Assembly (NCBI GenBank): GCA_031081675.1
Contig: JAVHLZ010000024.1
Location: forward strand, 1 to 36,240
DNA from: Armatimonadota bacterium
GTDB lineage: Bacteria; Sysuimicrobiota; Sysuimicrobiia; Sysuimicrobiales; Kaftiobacteriaceae
DNA length: 36,240 nt
Direction: 5' to 3'
Shown: piece after piece, positions 20,990-34,497 of the stretch
Position numbering within the stretch: the stretch's first letter is position 1
Layout of the letters: the number at the start of each line of letters is the position of its first letter
Translations under genes and position numbers: made by a program
The notes under the pieces: model-generated
The model's input: only the letters and a program-made list of their open reading frames with translations
Database searches by the model: none
Told to the model about the DNA's origin: nothing

Positions 20990-21002
20990 AGGCTCTCCCC
21001 GG

Positions 21003-21833
21003 TCAGGGGCCGCGGACCTGCAGACCGGTCTCCCCGGCCAGCAGCGCCGCGCCGCCGTAGTCCAGCACCGCCCGGACCGTGTACGCCCCCGGCGTGAGGG
21101 GAGTCGCCCACGTGGCCCGGAACTCCCGTGCCCCTCCCGGCAGGACCACCACGTCGGGCAGGACCACCTTGCCCGTCTGGTGGCCGGACGCGTCGAGGAG
21201 AACCACAAACCCCTGCACCCGCACGTGCACGTTCCCGGTATTTCTGAACAGCAGCCGCACCTCGGCGCCTGGAGGGCGCGCGACGGCCACCATCGACTGG
21301 ATGTCGGCGGAGACCAGCTCGGTCCCCCGCACCCGCACCAGCAGCCGGGAGGCCAGTTTGGGCACGACCACCGAGACCGTGCCGGTCACGCCGGTGGTCT
21401 GCAGCACCGGCGTGGGCGCCACCACCACAGCGCCGTAGCGGCCGCCACGGGCGTCGGGGGGCACGGTCACCGTCACCCGCACCGGCAGGGCGCGGTCGGG
21501 GTCCACGTCGAACTCCGCCGGCAGGACGCGGGTGAAGGAGGCCAGCGACCAGGCGGTGCTGCCCGGCCGCAGCACGTCCATGGTGCCGCTGGGGCGGATG
21601 GCGATGTCCTCCACGGACGCCCGAAAGCGCACCCGCCGGCCGGAGCGGTTGTAGACCACCACGATGCCGGTCGCGGTGCCGGCGGGGGCGGGGGCGAGTT
21701 CCACCTCCGGGGGACTGAGGCCGAAGGACAGGGGCTGGGCCTGGCCGGCCGCCGCCGCCGATACCAGGGCCAGGGCCGCGGCGGCCGCCGCGGCCCTGGG
21801 CAGAGTCCGTGGACGCCGGGGGGATCGCGTCAC
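21003..21833 (-). CDS. Secreted Ig-like chaperone-like protein
   Basis: A 276-aa protein with a signal peptide (Arg-rich start, Ala-rich core, about residues 1-32). Two beta-sandwich domains follow with the pattern PPEVELAPAPAGTATGIVVVYNRS and TVPPDARGGRYGAVVVAP. This pattern recurs in DUF916-type and pilus-chaperone-like periplasmic proteins. The C-terminal domain has LLFRNTGNVHVRVQG and ends in TPGAYTVRAVLDYGG. There is no C-terminal membrane helix, unlike Gram-positive DUF916 proteins. The GTG start has GGGAG 9 nt upstream, and the gene lies between the subunit-like gene (22-nt gap) and the barrel gene (13-nt gap). Chaperone function is inferred from fold pattern and position. Confidence 0.65.
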   Translation of the reverse strand: MTRSPRRPRTLPRAAAAAAALALVSAAAAGQAQPLSFGLSPPEVELAPAPAGTATGIVVVYNRSGRRVRFRASVEDIAIRPSGTMDVLRPGSTAWSLASFTRVLPAEFDVDPDRALPVRVTVTVPPDARGGRYGAVVVAPTPVLQTTGVTGTVSVVVPKLASRLLVRVRGTELVSADIQSMVAVARPPGAEVRLLFRNTGNVHVRVQGFVVLLDASGHQTGKVVLPDVVVLPGGAREFRATWATPLTPGAYTVRAVLDYGGAALLAGETGLQVRGP

Positions 21834-21855
21834 ACGCCGTCACTCCCTGTGAGCA

Positions 21856-22344
21856 TCAGGGCTGCACGCCCAGGTACTCCACGACGATGGTGTACGTCCC
21901 GGGGCTGTCCTGCCAGTCGATGCACTGCTGGTAGTCCACCGTCACATCCCGGTTGCCGGTCTTGGGCTGGTTTGTAAGGAAGAGATTGGCGTACGTGCTG
22001 GTGATGTCGGTGAACACCAGCACATCCCCGCCTTTGTACTGCAGCGGGTTCACCAGTTCGGTGCCTGAGCCGTCTTTGGCCTTCCCGTTGGGGTAGGTGA
22101 CCGGCTCCGACCGGATCTGCAGGTTCCAGGGCCTGTTGCTCTTGACGTTGACGGTGGTGGGCACGGTCCCGCAGGCTCCCGGGTCCGTGCTGGCAATCGA
22201 CGCCGACGCCGGGACCGTGACGTCGATGCGCGAGCCGGCGGCCACCGTCACCGTCTGGCTGCCGGAGGAGGCCCCGTAGCCGGCTCCGGCGGCGGCCACC
22301 ATGACGGCGGAGGCGAGGACGATCCTGATCAGTGCGGCTTTCAT
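21856..22344 (-). CDS. Secreted fibre-subunit-like protein
   Basis: A 162-aa protein with a clear signal peptide (MKAALIRIVLASAVMVAAAGAG, cleavage near residue 25). One beta-sandwich-like domain follows, starting VTVAAGSRIDVTVPA and ending with a GTYTIVVEYLG strand, as in spore-coat-U/Csu-type pilins and WxL-like proteins. Two cysteines (PGACGT and QQCID) could form one disulfide. The ATG has AAGGGG upstream. As first gene of the three-gene cluster it is the probable exported subunit. It is transcribed from an exact sigma-54 promoter at 22418-22432 with a palindrome just upstream. Fibre formation is inference. Confidence 0.65.
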   Translation of the reverse strand: MKAALIRIVLASAVMVAAAGAGYGASSGSQTVTVAAGSRIDVTVPASASIASTDPGACGTVPTTVNVKSNRPWNLQIRSEPVTYPNGKAKDGSGTELVNPLQYKGGDVLVFTDITSTYANLFLTNQPKTGNRDVTVDYQQCIDWQDSPGTYTIVVEYLGVQP

Positions 22345-22417
22345 TTCCAGCACCCCTTCCGTTCTAAGGAGAGTCACCCGCGCATGGTGCGGGCGGCTGA
22401 CGCCGTCCTCTGCATCA

Positions 22418-22432
22418 GCAAGATGCGTGCCA
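22418..22432 (-). promoter_or_regulatory. Sigma-54 promoter of the fibre-like cluster
   Basis: On the minus strand the sequence is TGGCACG-CATC-TTGCT, an exact match to the -24/-12 consensus with correct GG-to-GC spacing. Transcription would start near 22406, giving a ~61-nt leader to the ATG at 22344. Confidence 0.85.
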
Positions 22433-22612: not shown

Positions 22613-23059
22613 TCAGGCCGCGTCGGGGTGTGCCCCGGTCGGAGGCGGCGGGGCGGCGGGCAGGTCTGCGCCGGAGGAGGTCTCGGGGGAAGGGCGGACG
22701 CCGAACTCTTCCCGCACCGCCCGGGCCAGGGCGTCGTGGTGGCGTAGCAGGGCCAGCCGCAGGGCGCCGGCCGAGGCCGCCGGGCCCACCAGAACGGCCA
22801 CCGCCGGCCCCGCGGGGGAAAGGACGACGGCGCGGGTTCCGTAGAGGATCGTCAGAGCCTCGACGGGTCCGAACCCGCCGCTGTCGCCCAGCCGCTCGCC
22901 GACCATGAGCCCGCTGGCGGCGTAGGCCGCCAGGGTCTCGGGGTCCACCTGGGGGTCGCCCGCGGTGTCGAGGACCAGGCCGTCCCCGGAGGACACCACG
23001 ACCCCCAGGGCGCCCGCGGCGCGCTTGATGTCCCACAGAATGGCGGAGAGCTTCTCCAT
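22613..23059 (-). CDS. Roadblock/LC7 domain protein (MglB-like)
   Basis: A 148-aa protein whose first ~115 residues match the Roadblock/LC7 fold: ILWDIKRAAGALGVVVSSGDGLVLD opens the domain and LTILYGTRAVVLSPAGPAVAVLVGP forms the central strands. The tail (about 118-148) is Pro/Ala-rich and probably disordered. Roadblock proteins in bacteria regulate small Ras-like GTPases such as MglA in polarity and motility; no GTPase gene is in the window. It lies 30 nt after fliA with only a weak ribosome site. A CCTTCC/GGAAGG hairpin at 22547-22559 may end the transcript. Confidence 0.82.
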   Translation of the reverse strand: MEKLSAILWDIKRAAGALGVVVSSGDGLVLDTAGDPQVDPETLAAYAASGLMVGERLGDSGGFGPVEALTILYGTRAVVLSPAGPAVAVLVGPAASAGALRLALLRHHDALARAVREEFGVRPSPETSSGADLPAAPPPPTGAHPDAA

Positions 23060-23089: not shown

Positions 23090-23881
23090 TCAGGCCACGA
23101 TCGGGCGCCCGGGGAGCGGGGCGGGCGCTCCGTCCATCCAGGACCGCAGGGCCAGGTGCGTCCGCAGCATGCCCAGCGCCTCCGCGCGCATCTGGCTGAC
23201 CCGGGATTCGGTCACCCCCAGCACGCGGCCGATCTCCGCCAGGGTCAGGCCCTCGCAGTAGTACAGCCCTACCACCAGCTTGTGCCGCGCCGGCAGGGCC
23301 TGGATGGCCCGCCACAGGGTCCGGTCCCTCTCCTGCCGCTCCATGCGGGCCAGAGTGTCGCCCCAGACGTCCCGGATCACACTGTCGGGCAGTTGGTCGG
23401 AGGAGGCGATCTCTTCCAGGGACAGCACCTGCCCGGCCGCGGCGTCGGCCCGGATGCGCTCCACCGCCGCCTCCTCCCACCCCGTGGCCGCGACCACTTC
23501 CCGCCCGGTGGGGGGCCGGCCCAGGGAGCGGGCCAGCGTCCTCGCCTGGGCCTGCAGGCGGTGGACGTGGCGGCGGGCCACCCGGGGGAGCAGGTCGAGG
23601 GTGCGCAGGTAGTCGTACATCGCTCCGCGGATGCGCAGCCGGGCGAACGCCTCAAACGGGATCCCCCGGTCGGGGTCGAACCGGTCGATGGCTTCCAGCA
23701 GGCCGATCATCCCGTAGCCTTCCAGGTCCTCGCTCTTCACCGACGCGGGCATCCGGACCGCCATCTGGCGCGCCAGCGCGCGCACCAGAGGCAGGTAGGC
23801 CAGCGCCAGCCGCTCCCGCAGATCCGGAGAGCGCCCGGAGCGAAACCGGCTCCACAGTTCCGACGTCGTCCCGTCCGCCAC
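23090..23881 (-). CDS. fliA: FliA/WhiG-family sigma factor (sigma-28)
   Basis: A 263-aa sigma-70-family factor of the FliA/WhiG group. Region 2 has VKSEDLEGYGMIGLLEAIDRFDP and FAPR-like FEAFARLRIRGAMYDYLR. Region 3 has RPPTGREVVAATGW and region 4 ends in LTLAEIGRVLGVTESRVSQM. The GTG start lies 3 nt after the stop of the GAF gene, with GAGGTG about 10 nt upstream. FliA directs late flagellar or chemotaxis genes in most bacteria; with FlaG- and FlgN-like genes nearby a motility role is plausible, though no flagellar structural gene is present here. Confidence 0.92.
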   Translation of the reverse strand: MADGTTSELWSRFRSGRSPDLRERLALAYLPLVRALARQMAVRMPASVKSEDLEGYGMIGLLEAIDRFDPDRGIPFEAFARLRIRGAMYDYLRTLDLLPRVARRHVHRLQAQARTLARSLGRPPTGREVVAATGWEEAAVERIRADAAAGQVLSLEEIASSDQLPDSVIRDVWGDTLARMERQERDRTLWRAIQALPARHKLVVGLYYCEGLTLAEIGRVLGVTESRVSQMRAEALGMLRTHLALRSWMDGAPAPLPGRPIVA

Positions 23882-23884
23882 GGC

Positions 23885-24916
23885 CTACGTCACCTCGGCC
23901 AGCGCCCGCTCCGCCCGGGACAGCAGGACCTCCGGGGTCGCCTCGCCGTCGCCCGAGGCCGTGCCCAGCCACAGGCGGCCCCCGGGCCCGAGGACGCTCT
24001 CCACGGCATTGCGGGCGAGGCGTCGCACGATGGCGGCAGCCCGCTCGCCGCCGATGCCGGCCAGCAGCAGGGCAAACCGTCCCTCCTCCAGGCGGGCGAT
24101 GACATCGCAGGACCGCACGGCATCCTGCACCCAGCGGCTGAAGGCCTGCAGGCGCTCGGCCCGGTCCTGCCCCTCGCCGGGGTCCACGTCCAGCAGAGCC
24201 ACCGCGAACCGGGTCGCGTGGGTGCGGGCCCGGTGGGTCTCCTCCTCCACCCGGGCCAGGAAGTGGTGGCGGTTGGACAGGCCCGTCTTGGGGTCCAGGT
24301 ACAGGAGTTCCCGGATCCGCGCCTGCCGCCGCACGCGCGCCAGGGTCTGGCCGAACACCTCCGCCAGACGTCCCAGGCGGGCGAACTCCTCCTCGGAAAA
24401 CGTCCGGTCGGTGCGGGCCAGGGCCACCACGCCCGCCACCACGCCGTCGTGCACCAGGGGAAACGCCAGGAAGGCGCGCAGCGCCTCATCGCCGAACGAC
24501 GGGCGGCCGTCCCGGGCGCGCGGCGATGGAATCACCACCGGGCGCCCTTCCTGCGCCACCCACCCGGACAGGCCGGGACCGCGGGCGAACCGCACCTGCT
24601 CGGCCAGTTCCACCCGGATGCCCCGGACGGCCACGGGCCGCAGCCGCCCCGAGGTCCACTCGGCCACGTACAGGGTCCCGTGGTCGAAGGGCACGGCGCG
24701 GGACACCAGGTCCAGAAAGCGGTGGTACCCGACGCCCAGCGGCAGTTCCTCTTCCGCCAGCCGGGCGCACTCCAGGCGGACCACCATCTCCTCGGCCTCG
24801 GCCGCCAGTTCCTGGGAATGGCCGTTTTCCACCGCCGTCGCCCCGGAGGGCCGGGTCGCTTTGCGGGATGAGGCCGGCCTGCGCGCCGGTCCGCCGCGCC
24901 GTGTGCTCTCCGCCAT
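23885..24916 (-). CDS. GAF domain protein with degenerate GGDEF domain
   Basis: A 343-aa cytoplasmic protein with a basic, probably disordered N-terminus (1-35), a GAF domain (about 55-195; GPGLSGWVAQEGRPVVI, FLAFPLVHDGVVAGVVAL), then a GGDEF-type fold (about 203-343). The entry motif DPKTGLSNRHHFL is conserved, but the catalytic GGDEF is replaced by EEGRF (277-281) and the metal-binding Asp pattern is altered (LLDVDPGEGQD). Diguanylate cyclase activity is therefore unlikely; GTP/c-di-GMP sensing or a scaffold role is possible. The ATG has AGGGAG 8 nt upstream, and a near-exact sigma-54 promoter lies 45 nt before that. It ends 3 nt before fliA, with which it is surely cotranscribed. Confidence 0.85.
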   Translation of the reverse strand: MAESTRRGGPARRPASSRKATRPSGATAVENGHSQELAAEAEEMVVRLECARLAEEELPLGVGYHRFLDLVSRAVPFDHGTLYVAEWTSGRLRPVAVRGIRVELAEQVRFARGPGLSGWVAQEGRPVVIPSPRARDGRPSFGDEALRAFLAFPLVHDGVVAGVVALARTDRTFSEEEFARLGRLAEVFGQTLARVRRQARIRELLYLDPKTGLSNRHHFLARVEEETHRARTHATRFAVALLDVDPGEGQDRAERLQAFSRWVQDAVRSCDVIARLEEGRFALLLAGIGGERAAAIVRRLARNAVESVLGPGGRLWLGTASGDGEATPEVLLSRAERALAEVT

Positions 24917-24972
24917 CGTCGCCACTCCCTCTCGCAGCCGCCTGCGCGCGGCCGCTCCGGTGCGAAACGAGA

Positions 24973-24987
24973 GCAAGGCGCGTGCCG
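24973..24987 (-). promoter_or_regulatory. Sigma-54 promoter upstream of the GAF-fliA genes
   Basis: Minus strand CGGCACG-CGCC-TTGCT matches the -24/-12 consensus apart from C for the first T; GG-to-GC spacing is correct. The start would be near 24961, about 45 nt before the ATG at 24916. A GGGGAC/GTCCCC inverted repeat (25037-25042, 25053-25058) lies between it and the rpoN stop. Confidence 0.7.
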
Positions 24988-25110
24988 TCCGGGCGGCGCG
25001 GGGTCTCCCAGCCCCCGGGATCGGGAGGGAGAAAGCGGGGACAGCAGGGAGAGTCCCCTGCGCGAGGGGGCACGGCGGGCGGGACCCGGGGCCCGCGCCC
25101 GGACCCGGTC

Positions 25111-26472
25111 TCAGCGGATGCCGGCGGGACGGCCGCGGGCGGTGGACGGCGGGATGTGCATCTCCTCGCGGTACTTGGTCACCGTCCGGCGGGCGATGCG
25201 GATCCCCTCGGCCCCCAGGCGGCGCGCAATCTCCTCGTCGGTCAGGGGTCGGGTTTCGGACGCGATCAGGCTGCGGATGCGCTCCTTGATGGGCAGTGAC
25301 TGGTCGAAAAAGACCTCGAAGCTCACCACCTGGCCGCCGGGGAGCTGGGCGAACTTCCCGTCCAGCGCCCGACTGACGGTGGACTCGCTGATCCCCAGCT
25401 CCGCCGCCACCATGGCCTTGGTGAGGGGCCGCAGGTGGCCGGGGCCGCGCTCCAGGAACTCCCACTGGGCGCGCACGATGGCCTGCACGATGCTGGCAAA
25501 GGTCCAGTTGCGGCGCTGCAGGGCCTCGATGAACATCTTGGCCCGGCTCACGTAGTCCCGCACGTGCTCCCGGGAGCGGTCCGAGTAGGCTGCCGACGCC
25601 CGGCGCATCTGCCGGCGCAGGTCCTCGTAGAAGGCGTTGACCCGGAGGGCGAAGGCGTCCTGGCGGACCAGCTCCACCGCCCATCCCTCATCGGTGCGGC
25701 GGATGATCACATCGGGACGGGCTACCTCCGCCGGGCGGGTGCGGCCGCCGTCCTGCTCGTTGCGGAATCTCTCGCCGGGATAGGGGTAGCAGGTGGACCG
25801 CACCAGCTCGTGGGCTTCGCGGACCTGGGCCGCGGTCACCCCCAGGTCCCGGGCGATCTTCTCGAAACGGTGGGCGGCCAGGTCGGCCAGGTGGGAGGCG
25901 ACAATCTGCTGGGCCAAGCGGTTGGCCGGGGAGGGCTCCTGGACCCGCAACTGCAGCAGCAGGCACTCCTCGACGTTCCGGGCGCCCACCCCCACGGGCT
26001 CGAAGCGCTGGATGCGCGCCAGGACCGCCTCCACCTCCTCCACCTCGACGTTCAACTCCTGGGCCACCTGAGCCGGGGTGGCCTCCAGGTAGCCGTTGTC
26101 GTTGATGTAGCCGATCAGCCGTTCGCCGATGGCGTGGTCCCGCGCCGACAGTCCCTGGGCCTGCAGAACCATCAGCAGGTGCTCCTGCAGGGATACGGGG
26201 GCGACCACCCGGGCAAACGGATCGTCGTCGCCGTCGTCGGGGGTCCACTCGGTGAGGGACGGCCCGAGCTCGTCGGGGCCGGGCAGGTCCGCCGGCGCCT
26301 GCTCATCCAGCTCCAGGGCGGGGTTTTCGGCCAGCTCCTGCTCGATCCGCGCCAGGAGCTGGTTGATGGGCAGCACCAGCAGGGAGTTGACCAGCATGAG
26401 CTTGGGCACCATGCGCTGGTGCAGCGCGGGCGTGACGCCGACGGTGGCCTGCAGGCGGGGCTCGGCGGACAC
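25111..26472 (-). CDS. rpoN: RNA polymerase sigma-54 factor
   Basis: A 453-aa sigma-54. The N-terminal activator-interacting region has LMLVNSLLVLPINQLLARI and ELAENPALE. An acidic linker (about 55-85) and the core-binding region follow. The C-terminal DNA-binding domain has the HTH GISESTVSRALDGKFAQLP and the RpoN box ARRTVTKYREEMHIPP near the end. The GTG start lies 14 nt after the HD-GYP stop, with GAGAGG just upstream. Its presence beside an NtrC-type activator and five local -24/-12 promoters suggests that this locus is a main sigma-54 regulon of the organism. Confidence 0.97.
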   Translation of the reverse strand: MSAEPRLQATVGVTPALHQRMVPKLMLVNSLLVLPINQLLARIEQELAENPALELDEQAPADLPGPDELGPSLTEWTPDDGDDDPFARVVAPVSLQEHLLMVLQAQGLSARDHAIGERLIGYINDNGYLEATPAQVAQELNVEVEEVEAVLARIQRFEPVGVGARNVEECLLLQLRVQEPSPANRLAQQIVASHLADLAAHRFEKIARDLGVTAAQVREAHELVRSTCYPYPGERFRNEQDGGRTRPAEVARPDVIIRRTDEGWAVELVRQDAFALRVNAFYEDLRRQMRRASAAYSDRSREHVRDYVSRAKMFIEALQRRNWTFASIVQAIVRAQWEFLERGPGHLRPLTKAMVAAELGISESTVSRALDGKFAQLPGGQVVSFEVFFDQSLPIKERIRSLIASETRPLTDEEIARRLGAEGIRIARRTVTKYREEMHIPPSTARGRPAGIR

Positions 26473-26486
26473 TGACCTCTCCCCCC

Positions 26487-27944
26487 TTACCTCTCCCCCT
26501 CCCCGGCCACCGGCGCTGCCTCTGCCAGCACGAGGGGGGCCAGTTCGCCCGCCCGCAGGCAGGCCAGCAGGGCGTCCAGGACCTGGGGGTCGAACTGGGT
26601 GCCCCGGCCGCGCTCCAGTTCCTGGAGGGCCTGGGCCAGCGGCAGGGCGGCCCGGTACGCCCGGGTACTGGTCATGCTCTCCAGGGCGTCGGCGCCGGCC
26701 AGGATGCGGGCCTCCAGGGGGATCTGGTCTCCCCGCAGCCCCAGCGGGTAGCCGGTGCCGTCGAACCGCTCGTGGTGGAACAGCACCGCCTCCACCACCC
26801 GCGGCGGAAAGTCGGCCATGGCCAGGATCTTGGCGCCCATGAGGGTGTGGGTCTTCATCCAGTCATATTCCTCGGGCGTGAGCTCCGTAGGCTTGCGCAG
26901 GATGGCGTCGCCGATGCCGATCTTGCCGATGTCGTGGAGCAGCGCGGCGATCTTCAGGTCCTCCAGCCGGTCGGCGGGCAGGCCCAGCCGGGCCCCCATG
27001 GCCACCGCGTACTGGGCCAGCCGGTCCGAGTGGCCCCGGGTGGGCTGGTCCCGCAGGTCCACGGTGGCGGCCAGGGCGTAGACGGTCTTCCAGTAGGACC
27101 GCCGCAGCCGGTGGAACAGGCGGATGTTCTCGATGGCGATGGCTCCCTGGGCGGCGATGACCCGCAGGATGTCCCTGTCCACCGCGCCAAACGGCTCGGA
27201 CCGGGAGGCGGTGAGGATGCCGACCACGCTTCCGGCCACCTGCAGGGGCGCCGACAGGGTGCGGCCGTCGTCATCGGGGGCAGGCGCCGCCGCGGCCAGC
27301 AGGTCCTCGGCGGACAGGCGTACCGAGGACGACGCGGCGCCGTCGCCCTGCACGGTGGTCGGGCCGGCGGGGCCGGCGGTGGAGGTGGTGACCAGCACCT
27401 CCGAGCCGCCGTCTTCCAGGCACACCAGGGAGACCGCATCGGCCTCCAGCTCGTGCAGGACGGTCTCGGTGATGACCCGGAACAGGCGCGCTGGCTCCAC
27501 GTCGCCCGGCCGGGCGCTGCGGAGGTCCAGCAGGGGCTGCAGCGCCCGCAGCCGCGCGTTGCGCCGGAAGTACAGGCCCTTGCGCAGGCCCTCTTCCACC
27601 GTCCGCCGGAGGTCGTCGGGGGTGAACGGCTTCATCAGGAAACCGCTCACGCCCAGCTTGACCGTCTCCAGCAGGCTGTCCAACTCGCTGAAGCCGGTCA
27701 TGACCACCACCGAGACTTCCGGGTGATCGGCCACGATCCGCCGGGCGGCGTCCAGCCCGCTCATGCCCGGCATGCGGATGTCGGTGAGCAGCAGGTCGGG
27801 AGGGTCGTCCCGGGCGGCCTCCACCGCCGCTGGGCCGTCGGCCACCGCGCGGACGCGGTAGGTCCGCCCGAGGACGCGCGCGCAGAGGTCGCGGATCGCG
27901 TCCTCATCGTCCACCACCAGGATGCTGGCCGGCTGCGCGTCCAT
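26487..27944 (-). CDS. REC-GAF-HD-GYP response regulator (c-di-GMP phosphodiesterase-type)
   Basis: A 485-aa response regulator: receiver domain (1-120; phospho-acceptor D55 in LLLTDIRMPGMSG, K in MKPFTPDDL), a GAF-like domain (about 150-285), and a C-terminal HD-GYP domain (about 300-470). HD-GYP residues are intact: HDIGKIGIG, HTLMGAKIL, and HHERFDGTGYP with the GYP motif, so it probably hydrolyses c-di-GMP. Its receiver shares the string IRDLCARVL with the stand-alone receiver at 33164-33559, which hints at shared phosphorylation. The ATG has GGAGGTGG upstream and an exact sigma-54 promoter ~25 nt before that. rpoN follows directly. Confidence 0.93.
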   Translation of the reverse strand: MDAQPASILVVDDEDAIRDLCARVLGRTYRVRAVADGPAAVEAARDDPPDLLLTDIRMPGMSGLDAARRIVADHPEVSVVVMTGFSELDSLLETVKLGVSGFLMKPFTPDDLRRTVEEGLRKGLYFRRNARLRALQPLLDLRSARPGDVEPARLFRVITETVLHELEADAVSLVCLEDGGSEVLVTTSTAGPAGPTTVQGDGAASSSVRLSAEDLLAAAAPAPDDDGRTLSAPLQVAGSVVGILTASRSEPFGAVDRDILRVIAAQGAIAIENIRLFHRLRRSYWKTVYALAATVDLRDQPTRGHSDRLAQYAVAMGARLGLPADRLEDLKIAALLHDIGKIGIGDAILRKPTELTPEEYDWMKTHTLMGAKILAMADFPPRVVEAVLFHHERFDGTGYPLGLRGDQIPLEARILAGADALESMTSTRAYRAALPLAQALQELERGRGTQFDPQVLDALLACLRAGELAPLVLAEAAPVAGEGER

Positions 27945-27980
27945 CGCCCACCTCCGCCCGTCCGGGGGGAGGACACCGGA

Positions 27981-27995
27981 GCAATTTTCGTGCCA
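27981..27995 (-). promoter_or_regulatory. Sigma-54 promoter of the HD-GYP-rpoN genes
   Basis: Minus strand TGGCACG-AAAA-TTGCT is an exact -24/-12 match. Transcription would begin near 27969, ~25 nt before the ATG at 27944. rpoN is the next gene, so sigma-54 may activate its own synthesis. Confidence 0.85.
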
Positions 27996-28033: not shown

Positions 28034-29413
28034 TCAGCCGGCTTCGGCGCTCAGGTGGTGGTCGCGGATCTTGCTGTCCAGGACGGCGCGATCGATCTCC
28101 AGGACCCGGGCGGCCTCATCGAGATTCCACCCCGTCATCTTCAGAACGGCGTGGATGTGGCGCCGCTCGGCCTCGGCCAGGGACAGCGCGCGGGGGAAGC
28201 GGGTGCCGTGCTGGGACTGCTCGTCCAGCCAGATGTCATCGGCTCCGATGACCTCGCTGGTGGCCAGGATGACCACCCGCTGGATGGTGTACTCCAGCTC
28301 CCGGACGTTGCCCGGCCAGTCGTGGTCCCGCAGTTTCTTGAGGGCTGCCGGGGTGAACCCCTTGATCCGCTTGCCGAAGGCCACGGCGTACTTGTTGAGG
28401 AAGTGGTAGGCCAGGGGCTGGATGTCCTCCCGGCGCTCCCGCAGAGGAGGCAGCTCGATGGGCATCACCGCCAGCCGGTAGTACAGGTCCTCCCGGAACT
28501 GCCCCTCGGCAATGGCCTTCCGCAGGTCCTTGTTGGTGGCGGCGATGACCCGGGCGTTCACGTCAATGGGGCGACTCCCCCCCACCCGCTCGATCACCCG
28601 CTCCTGCAGGACGCGCAGCAACTTCACCTGCATCGCCGGGCTCATGTCGCCGATTTCGTCGAGGAAAATGGTGCCGTCCTGCGCGCGCTCGAAGCGCCCG
28701 ATCCGGCTGCTCACAGCGCTGGTGAATGCGCCCTTCTCGTGCCCGAACAGCTCGGTCTCCAACAACGTCTCGGGGATCGCGCCGCAGTTGACCACCACGA
28801 AGGGCCCGTGGGCCCGCGGGCTCTGCGAGTGGATGGACCGGGCCAGCAGTTCCTTGCCGGTGCCCGTTTCCCCATAGATGAGGACGGTGGCATCGGTGGG
28901 CGCCACCGCCGCCGCCAGCCGGAGGACTTCCCGCATGCGCGGGGAGTTGCCCACGATGCCCTCGAACTTGAAGGTGCGGACCAGCTCCTGCTGGAGGGCA
29001 CGGTTCTGCCGCAGGAGGCGGGCGCGCTCCAGGGCCTTGTGCACCACGATCATGAGTTCCTCGGGCCGGAAGGGCTTGGCCACATAGTGGTAGGCGCCCA
29101 GCTTGATGGCCTGGATGGCGGTATCGATGGTGGAAAACGCCGTGATGACGATGACCAGGGCTTCGGGGTCGTGCTCCATCATCGCCCGCAGGACGCTCAT
29201 GCCATCGATCTTGGGCAATTTGAGGTCCAGCACGACGAGGTCGAAGCGGCCGGACCGGAACCGGTCCAGCCCCTCCTGGCCGTCCACGGCGGTCTCCACC
29301 GAATAGCCCTCGTCCCGCAGGATCTTGGCCAGCAGGGTCCGCAGGTGCTCCTCGTCGTCAACGACGAGGATGGAGATGTCGGGGGGCTGCGAGGAGTCGG
29401 CGGCGAGCGTCAT
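28034..29413 (-). CDS. NtrC-family sigma-54-dependent response regulator
   Basis: A 459-aa activator: receiver (about 14-125; D63 in [14 protein letters not shown] in KPFRPEEL), AAA+ domain (about 150-385) with Walker A GETGTGKE, the sigma-54-contacting loop GAFTSA (consensus GAFTGA), Walker [12 protein letters not shown] and R-finger region FREDLYYRL, then a Fis-type HTH ([26 protein letters not shown]...). It opens sigma-54 promoters by ATP hydrolysis and is the likely activator of the five -24/-12 sites here. No cognate kinase is adjacent; the histidine kinase at 31215 is the nearest. The ATG is preceded by TATAAT at only 8 nt and has no clear Shine-Dalgarno, so the mRNA may be leaderless. 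Confidence 0.95.
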
Positions 29414-29574: not shown

Positions 29575-29898
29575 CTACCGGTGGCCGCGTCCCGGGGAGC
29601 GCATCAGCGCCGCCGGGGGAACGTCCCGCACCGGATGTCCGGTGCGCGGGTCGCGCACCCGGATGACGGGCTGGCGGGTGGCCTCGTCCACCTCGAGGGT
29701 GATCGCCAGGACACCCGCGCGGTCCGCGCGTGCGGCGCCGGGGGCGGCCTCCCCCGGGTCCTCTGCCCTGCCGGGAAGGCGGCCGGTCAGCGCCCGGCGC
29801 GCCCGCTCCATCAGGGCCACCAGCTCCGCGGGGACATCCGGCCCGACTCCGGTTGTGGCCGACGCCCCGGCGTGCGCGGACGGTGTGTCCGGTGCCAT
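29575..29898 (-). CDS. FlaG-like protein
   Basis: A 107-aa protein with a variable Ala/Pro-rich N-terminus and a conserved C-terminal ~45 residues: LAITLEVDEATRQPVIRVRDPRTGHPVRDVPPAALM matches the FlaG pattern (F-x-V-x-E-x-T-x-x-x-x-V-x-V-x-D-x-x-T-G-E-V-I-R-x-I-P). FlaG genes usually lie in flagellar operons and affect filament length. I chose the ATG at 29898 with GAGG 8 nt upstream; an ATG two codons earlier is too close to it. It begins 10 nt after the FlgN-like gene and shares its sigma-54 promoter. Confidence 0.75.
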   Translation of the reverse strand: MAPDTPSAHAGASATTGVGPDVPAELVALMERARRALTGRLPGRAEDPGEAAPGAARADRAGVLAITLEVDEATRQPVIRVRDPRTGHPVRDVPPAALMRSPGRGHR

Positions 29899-29908
29899 CA
29901 CCATCGCC

Positions 29909-30265
29909 TCAATTCAGCCGGGCAGACCGGGCGGCGCGGTCCGGGGATGGCACCAGGTGGCTCAGCCATGCTCCCTGACCCGCCCGCTCCACCTCGGCCA
30001 GAAGGCGCACCAGGGCCCCCATCTCCCGCCGCAGCCGGGATGCTCCGGGCCCGCCGGTTCCGACGCCAGCCAGCCGGCTGCGCTGGCGCTCCAGGTCCCG
30101 CACGGCCACGATGCACGCCGCCTCGGCCACCGCCAGGTCGGCCGCTTCCGCGTACTTCCCCTGGCGCAGAAGCAGGTGGCGCTGGCGCGCCAGGCGCACC
30201 AGCTCCCGGTGTACGGCCACCTCCTGCTCCAGAATCCTTCGCAGATCGTCGCTTCCTGTCGCCAC
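29909..30265 (-). CDS. FlgN-like helical protein (putative flagellar chaperone)
   Basis: A 118-aa almost all-helical protein: LRRILEQEVAVHRELVRLARQR, then a KYAEAADLAVAEAACIVAVRDLERQRSRL hairpin. This layout is typical of FlgN, the export chaperone for hook-associated proteins FlgK/FlgL; sequence similarity is weak, so other helical proteins are possible. The GTG at 30265 is preceded by GGGGTG. The frame stays open further upstream, but the sigma-54 promoter at 30316-30330 places the transcript start near 30304 and excludes most of that extension. It is followed by the FlaG-like gene. Confidence 0.6.
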   Translation of the reverse strand: MATGSDDLRRILEQEVAVHRELVRLARQRHLLLRQGKYAEAADLAVAEAACIVAVRDLERQRSRLAGVGTGGPGASRLRREMGALVRLLAEVERAGQGAWLSHLVPSPDRAARSARLN

Positions 30266-30315
30266 AGCGCACCCCGATTGATCGCCCCGCGGGAGATGCC
30301 CCGCCGGCACTGGAA

Positions 30316-30330
30316 GCAACCGCTGTGCCA
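30316..30330 (-). promoter_or_regulatory. Sigma-54 promoter of the FlgN-like/FlaG-like genes
   Basis: Minus strand TGGCAC-AGCGG-TTGCT matches the -24/-12 consensus with correct spacing. Start near 30304, ~39 nt before the GTG at 30265. The palindrome TGTC-G-GACA at 30341-30349 lies 11 bp upstream. Confidence 0.8.
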
Positions 30331-30467
30331 CAGGGTGGTCTGTCGGACACTTAACTTTGTGGACCCGGTGACGATACACCAGTATGGGGAGTAGCCCGAA
30401 CACTCCAGGGCGTCGCCGCGACGTCCAAACAATGGTACGAACGCCGACGGCGGCGCGGCGGAGCCGA

Positions 30468-30504: not shown

Positions 30505-30595
30505 CGTCTGCCGGAGACCGGGTTCATCCGTGCGTGCTGGCCTCGATGTGTCAGCCCGGCGCGGACCCGCGTCTATCCTCAGACGTAGGGGAGTG
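30505..30595 (+). other. Foldable leader RNA of GATWE peptide 1
   Basis: Three nested stems are possible: CGTCTG (30505-30510) with CAGACG (30580-30585); CGGGTTC (30519-30525) with GGACCCG (30563-30569, one G-U); and GCTGG (30536-30540) with TCAGC (30551-30555). The outer stem ends just before the AGGGGAG ribosome site, so folding could influence translation. It matches no riboswitch class that I know. Confidence 0.4.
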
Positions 30596-30599
30596 AGCC

Positions 30600-30743
30600 A
30601 TGAAGAAGGTCCTGGCTGCGATTGTGTTCCTGCTCCTGATGGCCGTCGGCACCTCCGTGTCGTGGGGAGGCGCCACCTGGGAGGGCGCCACGTGGGAGGG
30701 CGCGACCTGGGAAGGGTTTGACGCCTTCGGCGTGTGGGAGTAG
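30600..30743 (+). CDS. Secreted GATWE-repeat peptide 1 (47 aa)
   Basis: A tiny gene encoding 47 aa. Residues 1-21 form a textbook signal peptide (MKKVLAAIVFLLLMAVGTSVS), with Ser at -3/-1 of a site before WGG. The mature ~26-residue part is three tandem GATWE units (GATWEGATWEGATWE) followed by GFDAFGVWE. It holds five Trp, four Glu and no Lys, Arg or Cys. The ATG has GGGGAG 7 nt upstream and a sigma-70 promoter about 100 nt before it; an intrinsic terminator follows. A paralogue with the same signal/repeat/GVWE plan lies 218 nt downstream. I do not recognise the family. Trp-containing five-residue repeats occur at the C-termini of some S8 peptidases, but no peptidase domain is here. Secretion is well supported; function is unknown. 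Confidence 0.85.
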   Translation: MKKVLAAIVFLLLMAVGTSVSWGGATWEGATWEGATWEGFDAFGVWE

Positions 30744-30770
30744 GCGCCGGCGGCATCCGGCCGGTGGTGC

Positions 30771-30825
30771 GGCGGGGGAAGGCAGCTTCCCCCGCCGTTG
30801 CTTTTGGGGGCTTTTGGCCCCCCCA
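30771..30825 (+). terminator. Intrinsic terminator after GATWE peptide 1
   Basis: GGCGGGGGAA (30771-30780) pairs perfectly with 30787-30796 around a 6-nt loop, followed by TTTT at 30802-30805. A second hairpin, GGGGGC/GCCCCC (from 30806), follows immediately and overlaps a second TTTT. Together they should insulate the second peptide gene. Confidence 0.75.
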
Positions 30826-30858
30826 CCTGGGGCATAAGCCTCTGCGGGCGAGGCCGGG

Positions 30859-30895
30859 GCGTCCCCCACACAGAGATTCGCTCCAGCGGGGACGC
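30859..30895. promoter_or_regulatory. Inverted repeat just upstream of sigma-54 promoter
   Basis: GCGTCCCC (30859-30866) and GGGGACGC (30888-30895) form a perfect 8-bp inverted repeat with a 21-nt interval, ending 2 nt before the -24 element. It may be an activator-binding element or a hairpin; CACAG/CTGTG (30869-30873, 30895-30899) could pair across it. Confidence 0.35.
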
Positions 30896-30897
30896 TG

Positions 30898-30912
30898 TGG
30901 CACGGAAATTGC
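30898..30912 (+). promoter_or_regulatory. Sigma-54 promoter of GATWE peptide 2 and kinase
   Basis: Plus strand TGGCACG-GAAA-TTGCT is an exact -24/-12 match. Start near 30924, ~38 nt before the ATG at 30962. The kinase and receiver genes follow on the same strand without an obvious terminator. Confidence 0.85.
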
Positions 30913-30961
30913 TCCATCTAGGCCAGCAGAAGGAGTTCCGCCCGATGGGGAGGGAGAGAAG

Positions 30962-31111
30962 ATGCGCAGGTGGATCGTGGCTGTCCTGATGGCCGTGGCG
31001 GTCGTGTGCGCCGCCTCGTCGGTGTCCTGGGGGCGGGGAGCCACCTGGGAGGGAGCGACCTGGGAAGGTGCCACCTGGAAGTCGGGAGCGTCCGTCGGGG
31101 TGTGGGAGTAG
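30962..31111 (+). CDS. Secreted GATWE-repeat peptide 2 (49 aa)
   Basis: A 49-aa paralogue of peptide 1. The signal peptide is MRRWIVAVLMAVAVVCAASS, with the same SVSWG junction. The mature part is WGRGATWEGATWEGATWK, then SGASVGVWE, so the three-repeat core and the GVWE end are conserved while the residues between them differ. Codons of the repeats differ from those of peptide 1, which argues for selection on the protein. AGGGAG lies 8 nt before the ATG. An open frame extends upstream to 30734 but contains the terminator and promoter elements, so I reject it. Expression is from a sigma-54 promoter, unlike peptide 1. The histidine kinase starts 103 nt downstream. Signal, structural or RiPP-like roles are all possible. 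Confidence 0.85.
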   Translation: MRRWIVAVLMAVAVVCAASSVSWGRGATWEGATWEGATWKSGASVGVWE

Positions 31112-31214
31112 TCGGCCAGACCCTGCCGAAGGTCGTCACGGTCACGCAGGCCAGCCCGGCGCCCGCCTCAGGTCGGCGGGCCCGGGCTGAGCCGCGTCTG
31201 GCTGGAGCCGGCCG

Positions 31215-33167
31215 ATGAGACATCTGCCTGTGCCGGCGCGCCTGTACGTCGGGGGGGTGATCGCCGCCGGGGCCGCCCTGGCCCTGGTCGTCCCCCGGCT
31301 GCCGGGAGCCGCCCCGCGCCTGGATCCCGCATTCGGCATCTTCGTGGTGGCGGCGCTGCTCACGCAACTGGTGGGCGTGCGCGTCATCATGCCGGGCCGG
31401 GAGGGGATGGCCTGGTCGCTGATCGACGCCGTCATCGTCGCCACCATCCTGCTGTTCCCTCCCGGCAACATCGTGGTCCTGGTCCTGATCACGTTCACCG
31501 CCTACTGGATCAAGCGGCGGGAACTGCCCTGGTACCAGGGGGCATTCAACATCGCCCAGCACGTCCTGTCGGTGTGCGCCGCGGAGGCGGTGTGGCTGCT
31601 GGCGCGCCCCGCCGACGGCGGCGGCGCGCTGGCCCTGCGCTGGTACGCGGGGGCGTTTGCGGCCGGCGGGACGTTCTACCTGGTCAACGGTGCCCTGGTC
31701 ACCCTGGCCATCGCCCTGGCTGCCGGCCGCCCGCCGCTGCAGGTGGGGGTGATCTCCCGCCACAGCTTCTACCGGGAGATGGTCCTGGTCTGGATGGGCG
31801 CCGTGGTGGCCGACTTCTGGCTGGTCAATCCGTGGCGGACCGTCCTGCTGGCCCTCCCCCTGGCGGGCCTGTCCAAGATGCTGCGGATCCAGATCGAGGA
31901 CGCCGAGCGCATCCGCCGCAGCCAGCAGGATGCGGAAGCCCGCGCCCAGCAGCTGGCCAGCCTCAACGAGCTGGCCCAGGCCCTCACCAGCAGCCTGGAC
32001 CTGGACCAGGTCTACCAGGCCCTGTACGCCCAGGTCCGCAAGATTCCCGGAGTGGACGTCGTCGGCGTCGGGGTGCTGGACGCCGCCACCCAGCGCCTGG
32101 AGTTCGGGCTGTGGCGCACCGCGGATCGCGCCTTCTCCCCCTACAGCCGCAGCGCCGCCGACTCGCCGTTCCGCGAGCTGCTCGCGATCCGCGGACCGCA
32201 GGTCTACCGTCGGCCTGAGGACGAGGACCGGATCCGCCAGCTGGCGTGGTACGGGCCACTGCTGCAGGACGCGGTGGTGGTGGTCATCCCCCTGGCGGTG
32301 GGCGAGCGGGTCGTGGGGCTGGTGATTGTGGGCGCCCGGCAGGACCTGACTCCTCCGGACGTGGACCTGCTGTCCACCATGGCCAGTCAGGCGGCGGTGG
32401 CCATGGAGAAGGCGCAGCTGTTCGCCAACCTGCAGCGGCAGATGGCCATGCTGGAGCAGACCCAGTTCCAGCTCATGCAGTCGGCCAAACTGGCCACCAT
32501 CGGCGAGCTGGCGGCCTTCGTGGCTCACGAGATCAACAACCCCCTGACCAGCGTCCTGGGCTACGCCTCCCTGATCCTCAGCGAGACGCCCCCCGAGGAC
32601 CCCCGCCGGGCCGACCTGGAGGTCATCGAAAAGGAGGCCCTGCGGGCGAGGGCCATCGTGCGGGACCTGCTGGGCTACGCCCGCCAGACCGACGCCGCCA
32701 TGGAGCAGACCCATGTCAACGACGCCATCCAGGCGGTCCTGCCCCTGATCCGCCGGCGGGCCGAGTCCCAGAACGTGCAGATCGCAGCCCGGCTGGACCC
32801 GGACGTCCCTCCCATTCTGGGCGATGTCAACCAGCTCAAGCAGGTCTTCATCAACATCCTCAACAATGCCATCGACGCCATGCCCCACGGCGGCCAGGTG
32901 GAGATCATCACCCGCCAGGTGAGCGGGAACGGCAGCGGTCCCCAGGTGGAGATCACGTTCCAGGACACGGGGGTCGGCATCCCGCCCGAGAAGCTGGACC
33001 GTATCTTCGACCCCTTCTTCACCACCAAGGAGAACGGCAAGGGCACCGGGCTGGGGCTGCCCATCAGCAAGAGGATCGTGGAGCGCCACGGGGGCACCAT
33101 CGCCGTGGACAGCACCCTGGGACAGGGCACGCGGTTCACCATCTACCTGCCGGTGGCCGCGCCGTGA
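31215..33167 (+). CDS. Multi-pass membrane GAF histidine kinase
   Basis: A 650-aa sensor kinase. Residues 1-222 contain about six or seven hydrophobic segments with short loops, a membrane-embedded input region without a large extracellular domain. A short coiled coil (about 222-262), a GAF domain (about 255-400), a HisKA domain with phospho-acceptor H438 (FVAHEINNPLTSVLGY) and an HATPase domain (N box INILNNAIDAM, DTGVGIPPEK, GTGLGLPIS) follow. This input type is compatible with sensing a small, membrane-near ligand, as for peptide-sensing AgrC/ComD kinases, but those have a different kinase family. The ATG has GGAG 8 nt upstream. The stop codon overlaps the receiver gene start (GTGA). Confidence 0.93.
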   Translation: MRHLPVPARLYVGGVIAAGAALALVVPRLPGAAPRLDPAFGIFVVAALLTQLVGVRVIMPGREGMAWSLIDAVIVATILLFPPGNIVVLVLITFTAYWIKRRELPWYQGAFNIAQHVLSVCAAEAVWLLARPADGGGALALRWYAGAFAAGGTFYLVNGALVTLAIALAAGRPPLQVGVISRHSFYREMVLVWMGAVVADFWLVNPWRTVLLALPLAGLSKMLRIQIEDAERIRRSQQDAEARAQQLASLNELAQALTSSLDLDQVYQALYAQVRKIPGVDVVGVGVLDAATQRLEFGLWRTADRAFSPYSRSAADSPFRELLAIRGPQVYRRPEDEDRIRQLAWYGPLLQDAVVVVIPLAVGERVVGLVIVGARQDLTPPDVDLLSTMASQAAVAMEKAQLFANLQRQMAMLEQTQFQLMQSAKLATIGELAAFVAHEINNPLTSVLGYASLILSETPPEDPRRADLEVIEKEALRARAIVRDLLGYARQTDAAMEQTHVNDAIQAVLPLIRRRAESQNVQIAARLDPDVPPILGDVNQLKQVFINILNNAIDAMPHGGQVEIITRQVSGNGSGPQVEITFQDTGVGIPPEKLDRIFDPFFTTKENGKGTGLGLPISKRIVERHGGTIAVDSTLGQGTRFTIYLPVAAP

Positions 33168-33559
33168 CCCAGACCGCCCTCCCGCAGGTGCGCGCCGCCC
33201 GGATCCTCGTCATCGACGACGAGGCCCCCATCCGCGACCTGTGCGCCCGCGTCCTCGCCCGCGCGGGCTACCAAGTGACCAGCGCCGGCAGCGGCGAGGA
33301 AGGCCTGGCCCGCCTGGGCGAGGAACCCGTGGACCTGATCGTCACCGACATCCGCATGCCCGGGCTGTCGGGGCTGGACGTCCTCGAGCGCGCCAAGGCG
33401 GCCTTCCCCGGCGTGCGGGTCATCCTGATCACCGGGTTCGGCACGCCCCAGACCCTGGCCCGGGCCGAGCAGGCGGGAGCCGACCGGATCCTCACCAAGC
33501 CCTTCAATCCCGCCGAGCTGGTGGCGGCGGTGCGCGAGATCCTCGCCCCGGCCGGGTGA
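33164..33559 (+). CDS. Stand-alone receiver-domain response regulator
   Basis: A 131-aa protein made of one receiver domain: acidic pocket DDE near residues 18-20, phospho-acceptor D62 in LIVTDIRMPGLSG, Thr in ILITGFG, Lys in LTKPFNPAEL. There is no output domain. Its GTG start overlaps the kinase stop codon, so it is surely its partner. It resembles the receiver of the HD-GYP regulator (IRDLCARVL and TDIRMPG-SGLD shared). It may relay phosphate or act by protein contact, in CheY/Spo0F style. Confidence 0.93.
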   Translation: MTQTALPQVRAARILVIDDEAPIRDLCARVLARAGYQVTSAGSGEEGLARLGEEPVDLIVTDIRMPGLSGLDVLERAKAAFPGVRVILITGFGTPQTLARAEQAGADRILTKPFNPAELVAAVREILAPAG

Positions 33560-33606: not shown

Positions 33607-34497
33607 GTGACGGCGTTTGCCGCGTTGCGCGATTTCTTCTCCCGGGAACGGGAGGTGGCTGCCGTCTACCTCTACGGCACCTACGCCGATGAGCGCACCT
33701 GGCCCGACAGCGATATCGAGATCGCCCTGCTGTTCCCCGAGCCCGCCGACGAGCAGGCCATCGACGACTACCTGGAACGCCTGGCCGGCGCCAATCCCCT
33801 GCAGGACGCGCCGGGCATCCTGATGCCCTTCGCGCTCAACACCCACGTCCTGCCGGTCATCTACGAGATCCTGGCCAGCGCCCACCCGCTGGTGGTGCAC
33901 GATCCCGCGGCGGTGCGCGCGTTTGCGGCCCGCGCCGGGGCGCGGGTGGAACAGGAGCGGGCCGCAATGCTCCAGGACGCCCGGGACGCCATCGTTCAGG
34001 CCCGGGCCCTGGGCGCCACCGACGCGGCGCCGCGCCTGGCCCGGCCCGCCCGCCCGCTGGATCCCCTGCGCATCGGGTGGCGGCTGGCCCGGATCCTCAC
34101 CGCGGCCGCAGTCCTGGAGCCGGCGACGCGGGATGCCGGAGAGGCCGGCGAGGATCCCGACCAGCTGGGACACATCATCGGGTGGTTCAGCAACGCCGCG
34201 GGAGCCGCCACCGGCATCGCCAAGGCCGCGCTCAGCCTGTGGGAGATCCCGCGGCCCAGCCGGCGCTGGCAGGTGTTCCTGCCCCTGGCGGATGCCGGGG
34301 CAATCACCACCGAACTGGCCCTGCAGCTGGGGGCGGTGGTGGAGGCGCGATGGCAGCTGCTGACCCGGAGCGGGCTGGCGGACCCGGAGCGTATCGCCGC
34401 CTCCGTCCGGGCCGCGTTGGCGCCCCTGCTGACCTTTGCCCGGCTGGCGGCCTGGTACTGCGACCTGCCCGGAGGCTCTGAGCAGCGGGTGCACTGA
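33607..34497 (+). CDS. MNT-type nucleotidyltransferase domain protein
   Basis: A 296-aa protein. The N-terminal ~140 residues are a minimal-nucleotidyltransferase fold: LYGTYADERTWPDSDIEIALLF fits the GSxA-x(7-9)-SD-x-(D/E) signature, with Glu in place of the second usual Asp, followed by FALNTHVLPVIYEILASAHPLVV. The C-terminal ~150 residues are helical (RIGWRLARILTAAAVLEP...HIIGWFSNAAGAATGIAKAALSLWE) and could be a fused helical partner domain; I see no R-x4-6-H HEPN motif, so a classical MntA/HepT toxin-antitoxin fusion is not supported. The GTG start has GGAGG too close upstream to be a good ribosome site, so the start is uncertain. It follows the receiver gene by 47 nt. Confidence 0.7.
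   Translation: MTAFAALRDFFSREREVAAVYLYGTYADERTWPDSDIEIALLFPEPADEQAIDDYLERLAGANPLQDAPGILMPFALNTHVLPVIYEILASAHPLVVHDPAAVRAFAARAGARVEQERAAMLQDARDAIVQARALGATDAAPRLARPARPLDPLRIGWRLARILTAAAVLEPATRDAGEAGEDPDQLGHIIGWFSNAAGAATGIAKAALSLWEIPRPSRRWQVFLPLADAGAITTELALQLGAVVEARWQLLTRSGLADPERIAASVRAALAPLLTFARLAAWYCDLPGGSEQRVH

Follow-up and report, generated by a model that had tools for sequence, protein, structure and literature searches.

Do the two very small genes that precede a membrane histidine kinase on contig JAVHLZ010000024.1 (assembly GCA_031081675.1) encode secreted peptides that signal to that kinase? The contig was analysed over its full 36,240 nucleotides (nt), referred to here as the window, and a first-pass annotation had described on it two open reading frames (ORFs) for repeat peptides of 47 and 49 amino acids (aa), directly 5' of a histidine kinase and a receiver, and had proposed a peptide-receptor module. 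Re-inspection confirmed the two ORFs, their coordinates and layout, and their placement:

30600 to 30743, plus strand: peptide gene 1, 47 aa, comprising a signal peptide, SVSWG, three GATWE units and GFDAFGVWE
30962 to 31111, plus strand: peptide gene 2, 49 aa, comprising a signal peptide, SVSWG, GATWE/GATWE/GATWK and GVWE
31215 to 33167, plus strand: histidine kinase, with a multi-helix membrane domain (about residues 1-225), GAF, HisKA (PF00512) and HATPase_c
33164 to 33559, plus strand: stand-alone receiver, whose start overlaps the kinase stop by 4 nt

Peptide 1 has the sequence MKKVLAAIVFLLLMAVGTSVSWG-GATWEGATWEGATWEGFDAFGVWE, and peptide 2 reads ...SSVSWG-RGATWEGATWEGATWKSGASVGVWE. The peptide-kinase set has the appearance of a peptide signalling system not described before, and the peptide genes are apparently switched in part by a regulator from the same cluster.

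The exact DNA pattern for GATWEGATW occurs at no other locus in the window genome and in none of 60 relatives; it is too narrow a query, and the diverged peptides were revealed through orthologues of the kinase. A search with the kinase N-terminus gave seven clear orthologues (52-67% identity; next match 25%), all in the same genome family, and one to three short peptide ORFs lie directly upstream of the kinase in 8/8 genomes (1, 2, 2, 2, 2, 2, 3 and 3 copies, 17 in all). A profile of the 17 peptides recovered just those 17 at E<1e-16 in 43 genomes of the order, with the next match at E 0.0075 and no peptide in the remaining 35; when the profile search was widened to 291 genomes the same eight were positive and none of the 248 wider genomes was. 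The peptide gene is thus what would be looked for in a pheromone-kinase pair, located beside a membrane histidine kinase and co-inherited with it (8/8 vs 0/35), and the pattern that the first-pass annotation had named as counter-evidence, kinase homologues mostly lacking a nearby peptide gene, did not appear among these relatives. The sample is one bacterial family represented by eight draft genomes; the relatives' genomes are metagenome-assembled, with soil- or sediment-like sample names, and presumably belong to the phylum CSP1-3/Sysuimicrobiota.

All 17 peptides follow one plan, in which a signal peptide is followed by an invariant SVSWG, xTWE units and a C-terminal Trp, usually as WE. The invariant alignment columns are M1, SVSWG, an E, a TW and the last Trp (W46), and the mature part is 22-33 residues long. 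Exact GATWE is a fair description of the repeat in the window genome and is special to it; the unit core common to the family is TWE with A or V before it. Signal peptides were assessed by visual inspection under the -3/-1 rule, and every peptide (17/17) has S at -3 and G at -1 relative to a putative cleavage after SVSWG. A mature peptide cut there would hold four Trp residues, and the five counted previously would apply only with SVSWG retained. Pfam returned no match to either window peptide at E<=1, including the ComX family PF05952, and PDB and NCBIfam searches returned weak matches only, which we read as signal-peptide resemblance; the best NCBIfam match among all 17 peptides (E 0.006, one member only) was treated as chance. 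These searches without a convincing match agree with the previous remark that no named family was known to have this plan. The single peptide of one genome (G008) resembles copy 1 at its front and copy 2 at its back; it looks like a fusion of the two, and an assembly collapse is possible.

Seventeen homologous ORFs in the same place in eight genomes, with ratios of nonsynonymous to synonymous change (dN/dS) of about 0.14-0.25, indicate that both small genes are real coding sequences and not chance ORFs. Pooled dN/dS was 0.25 for mature orthologues, 0.14 for mature paralogues and 0.19-0.23 for the signal part, far below the value near 1 that had been named beforehand as evidence against the proposal. 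In the window genome the mature parts of the two copies diverge at 72% of synonymous and 6% of nonsynonymous sites, which implies an old duplication kept by selection. In several other genomes the proportion of synonymous differences (pS) in the mature part is low (for example 0.11-0.22 in G003, G004, G006 and two copies of G009) vs 0.39-0.68 in the signal part. That synonymous sites are alike in one part and not in the other suggests gene conversion acting on the mature part only. Identity of the mature parts was 0.88 within vs 0.55 between genomes, and signal identity was 0.55 in both; the mature difference was reached by 0/10,000 permutations, a number that serves as a guide and not as a strict P value because the pairs share ancestry. 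Homogenisation restricted to the mature parts is what would be expected if all copies in one cell must fit one partner.

The putative partner was modelled from eight sequences with AlphaFold2 (predicted local distance difference test, pLDDT, 76), and the kinase membrane domain was predicted to form about eight helices. Its best PDB matches are S-components of energy-coupling factor (ECF) transporters (TmRibU; TM scores 0.45/0.61, E 0.07, weak), a likeness that would agree with an outward-facing ligand pocket and that we treat as a lead only. The window kinase has one GAF domain and 650 aa, and its seven orthologues have 764-766 aa with an additional GAF-like stretch.

The control regions of the two peptide genes differ. 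The promoters given here are matches to consensus sequences and are putative in function:

30371 to 30377, plus strand: sigma28-like -10 element (ACGATAC) 5' of peptide gene 1, a consensus match and the weakest in the window genome
30468 to 30496, plus strand: sigma70-type promoter of peptide gene 1, TTGACA-N17-TACAGT (1 found vs a shuffle mean of 0.0)
30515 to 30577, plus strand: 5' leader with a conserved dyad, AGACC ... G(G/C)GTCTATC, the stem nearly invariant
30769 to 30798, plus strand: intrinsic terminator after peptide gene 1, 25 nt past its stop
30898 to 30913, plus strand: sigma54 -24/-12 promoter of peptide gene 2, TGGCACGGAAATTGCT, which probably also serves the kinase-receiver pair

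A TTGAC-type promoter precedes copy 1 in 8/8 genomes, and 28-107 nt upstream of it the seven other genomes carry CCGATAG, which we take to be a sigma28 -10 region; in the window, TTAACTTT at 30351-30358 lies roughly at the -35 position of the sigma28-like element. A terminator follows copy 1 in all seven genomes with two or more copies (7/7), and none was found after later copies, including between the last copy and the kinase, which suggests that kinase and receiver are probably transcribed from the sigma54 promoter. The best-scoring sigma54 box lies 44-51 nt before the ATG of every second or third copy (9/9), and for 8/9 of these later copies at most 3 of 2000 shuffled sequences scored as well (57 for G007.2). 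Of five occurrences of the strict box TGGYACGNNNNTTGCT in the 2.29-Mb window genome, three are on this 36-kb contig (30898 plus, 27980 minus, 22417 minus); the reversed pattern used as a control occurs nowhere in the window genome, and the chance of finding 3 of 5 boxes within 1.6% of the genome is about 4e-5 (binomial estimate). RNA structure in the leader is not proven, given a nearly invariant stem with no compensatory pairs; folding z-scores were -0.4 to -1.8, and Rfam gave no match over 146 kb of window and relatives, leader included. Spacing within the dyad before peptide gene 1 varies widely between genera.

The two further strict boxes lie on the minus strand, where a cluster at 22.6-30.4 kb belongs to the same account. 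The first-pass annotation had left this cluster outside its coordinates and had overlooked the rpoN-NtrC-FliA island as a whole, together with the sigma54 promoter of copy 2, the terminator of copy 1 and the homogenisation of mature parts within genomes. Features of the island and its flanks include:

28034 to 29413, minus strand: NtrC/AtoC-type sigma54 activator with receiver, AAA with a GAFTSA loop and HTH_8 (77-80% identity in seven relatives)
27980 to 27995, minus strand: sigma54 box upstream of the HD-GYP gene, TGGCACGAAAATTGCT
26487 to 27944, minus strand: receiver-GAF-HD-GYP regulator
25111 to 26472, minus strand: RpoN (sigma54)
23090 to 23881, minus strand: FliA/WhiG-type sigma28, over the NCBIfam cut-off
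22417 to 22432, minus strand: sigma54 box upstream of a secreted-protein operon, TGGCACGCATCTTGCT
21856 to 22344, minus strand: small secreted protein, first gene of the surface-protein operon
33607 to 34497: Pol-beta-type nucleotidyltransferase (NTase) with a weak HepT-like C-terminus

The NtrC-type neighbour carries the sigma54 interaction domain of an enhancer-binding activator. The kinase core is nearest AtoS and the activator nearest AtoC, a known type of kinase-sigma54 activator pair. As in AtoS/AtoC and NtrB/NtrC systems, sigma54 boxes lie on nearby genes; unlike in those systems, the peptide genes split the kinase from the activator, the kinase is paired with a stand-alone receiver, and a peptide gene bears a sigma54 promoter. 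Where the contigs extend far enough to tell, the eight genomes share gene order and strand; only the NTase departs from this, being inverted in some. Several genomes of other families have NTase, NtrC-type activator and RpoN adjoining with the peptides and kinase orthologue absent, which suggests insertion of the cassette next to a pre-existing sigma54 core. Within the family, the kinase-less members G002 and G005 are without peptide, NTase and an island-type NtrC AAA match, and genus g3 is missing peptides, kinase, NtrC-type activator and NTase; from the joint absence in G002 and G005, gain or loss seems to affect the module as a whole, although the G005 contig breaks off within rpoN and this calls for caution. 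None of the 10 genomes of the family has flagellin or FlhA, both of which occur in other families of the order, consistent with a report of flagellar core genes only in Sysuimicrobiaceae and Thermofontiviventaceae (PMC11604079).

Taken in sequence, these elements describe a possible circuit. The sigma70-type promoter, possibly with help from sigma28, would supply peptide 1 at a basal rate from a transcription unit of its own, shut off by the terminator. The signal peptide of peptide 1 would direct export through Sec, followed by cleavage, probably at or just before SVSWG, or by display on the cell. The acidic Trp-repeat peptide would then engage the multi-helix membrane domain of the adjacent kinase, which would alter the phosphorylation of the coupled receiver and, directly or via that receiver, of the NtrC-type activator. 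Activator and sigma54 would drive the later peptide copies (2 and 3), the HD-GYP gene and probably also the kinase-receiver pair, together with the surface-protein operon in some genomes, giving a feedback loop that may switch the surface or cyclic di-GMP state of cells without flagella; both the sign and the output of the loop are predictions.

We give an even chance to this reading, that a secreted or cell-surface peptide signals to the adjacent kinase in a sigma54-driven feedback loop within a sigma54/sigma28 island. We count for it the 8/8 vs 0/35 co-occurrence, selection, homogenisation, the sigma54 boxes and terminators, the AtoS/AtoC likeness, synteny and the joint absence in g3. The linkage, the low Ka/Ks and the lack of a named family leave the proposed peptide-receptor module better supported than when it was first suggested, and contact between ligand and receptor stays its conjectural step. 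More tentatively, and with somewhat less than even confidence, we suggest a new bacterial class of peptide signalling, defined by tandem Sec-exported Trp-repeat peptides, a housekeeping-type promoter for copy 1 and sigma54 promoters for later copies, a kinase acting on an NtrC-type activator, and a flagellar-type island without flagellin or FlhA. Peptide-to-kinase signalling is known mainly from Firmicutes, and a true instance here would extend it to a new lineage with a new control logic, in which later copies and kinase are apparently sigma54-controlled. It would also show a use for a flagellar-type sigma hierarchy retained in cells without flagella. Chlamydia likewise lives without flagella. 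Parts of two reports describe the retention there of sigma54, sigma28 and an AtoC-like activator; unlike here, those regulons control late developmental genes, and the parts in question mention no secreted repeat peptide (PMC10597470, PMC7482065). The phylum of the window organism is uncultured and can be abundant in soil (PMC11604079). Peptides this short can be made synthetically, so a direct test of the receptor hypothesis does not depend on a culture of the organism.

Several points weigh against signalling to the kinase. All eight genomes come from one family, so that the co-occurrence amounts to few independent events; gene conversion can homogenise copies without receptor selection, and in several genomes synonymous sites were homogenised too; and the closest structural match of the modelled membrane domain is to ECF S-components, which are vitamin binders (weak, E 0.07). 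A location near sigma54 and surface-protein genes fits a structural role as well, and the surface role named in the first-pass annotation stays a rival, unlikely yet deserving serious weight: the peptide would form a coat or assembly on the outside of the cell, under control shared with the secreted-protein operon, and the kinase would monitor that layer or be a mere neighbour. Repeats, tandem copies and sigma54 control shared with the surface operon would suit such a peptide, as would the usual role of flagellar-type regulators in driving surface structures; against this, the mature part has just 22-33 residues, the surface operon is found in 4/8 genomes vs peptide and kinase together in 8/8, and the peptide gene adjoins the kinase and not the operon. 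The signal peptide could also be an uncleaved anchor, and the second serious rival, which we regard as rather improbable, is a regulator like MgrB or SafA, both regulators of PhoQ, whose helix stays in the membrane while its Trp tail touches the kinase outside the same cell and sets feedback gain without diffusing. MgrB and SafA share with the present peptides a length of about 47 aa (exactly that of peptide 1 for MgrB), one hydrophobic segment, an outside tail and a link to a sensor kinase, and the SafA tail alone is active when added from outside (PMC8404706). The N-terminal lysines or arginines before that single segment, and linkage to the kinase and probably its regulon, fit the comparison, which falters on the tandem copies beside the kinase gene, the Trp/Glu repeats and the lack of a Cys pair. 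The S -3/G -1 residues in 17/17 peptides are as expected for signal peptidase cleavage after SVSWG, the hydrophobic stretch has little length, and membrane parts that vary (0.55 within and between genomes) with tails that are alike are the reverse of what a membrane-docking helix would lead one to expect.

The layout of the locus also recalls ComQXPA of Bacillus, where a short peptide gene lies directly 5' of a multi-transmembrane histidine kinase and a response regulator on one strand, with a Trp near the peptide C-terminus (here the invariant W46) and a ComX that is diverse between strains and species (PMC4008528). The multi-helix kinase N-terminus is shared; here, however, the kinase has HisKA (PF00512) and GAF and not PF07730, the regulator is a stand-alone receiver, promoters are of the sigma54 type, and the peptides have a Sec-type signal peptide and Trp repeats in one to three copies. 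A ribosomally synthesised and post-translationally modified peptide (RiPP), with Trp modified before export (for example prenylated as in ComX), would account for the conserved C-terminal Trp and the nearby kinase. We nevertheless consider this earlier suggestion very improbable: the ComQ isoprenyl transferase (PF00348) is absent among the genes scanned around the peptides, the cluster genes scanned include no other prenyltransferase, no radical SAM enzyme and no further maturation enzyme, and a Sec-type signal peptide stands in place of a RiPP leader. Least credible of all is that the ORFs are attenuation leader peptides, in which repeated Trp codons precede a terminator. Several Trp codons and a terminator 25 nt past the copy-1 stop invite the comparison, but signal peptide, SVSWG and Glu/Thr positions are conserved at the amino-acid level, later copies lack a terminator, a separate sigma54 promoter serves the next gene, and no Trp-synthesis gene occurs among the downstream genes scanned.

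The remaining features of the minus-strand cluster are:

29909 to 30403, minus strand: FlgN-like protein, below the Pfam cut-off, its true start probably near 30349 or lower
29575 to 29904, minus strand: FlaG-like protein, a very weak match
23885 to 25684, minus strand: GGDEF-domain protein
22613 to 23059, minus strand: roadblock/LC7 (MglB-like) protein

The FlgN, FlaG and sigma28 matches had raised the idea of a working flagellar operon, which is ruled out by the absence of flagellin and FlhA from the ten genomes. The three-gene surface-protein operon (18590-22344, minus strand; in 4 of 8 genomes) encodes a small beta-rich protein, an Ig-like protein and a large protein with Cu-amine-oxidase-N and SdrD_B domains. 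No family was found for the first two products, and we do not claim a chaperone-usher pilus, since the subunit model was too poor (pLDDT 63) and its matches were mixed. In the GGDEF-domain protein, EEGRF occupies the expected GGDEF position, and the protein may be a cyclase that has degenerated and works as a sensor or scaffold. The FliA homologue of the peptide-less genome G005 (locus L136, contig C264, 1319-1825) keeps regions 2 and 4, with about 60 codons between them apparently lost in frame. In several families of the order the NTase is a neighbour of rpoN and the NtrC-type activator (also at L133, L135, L137 and L138).

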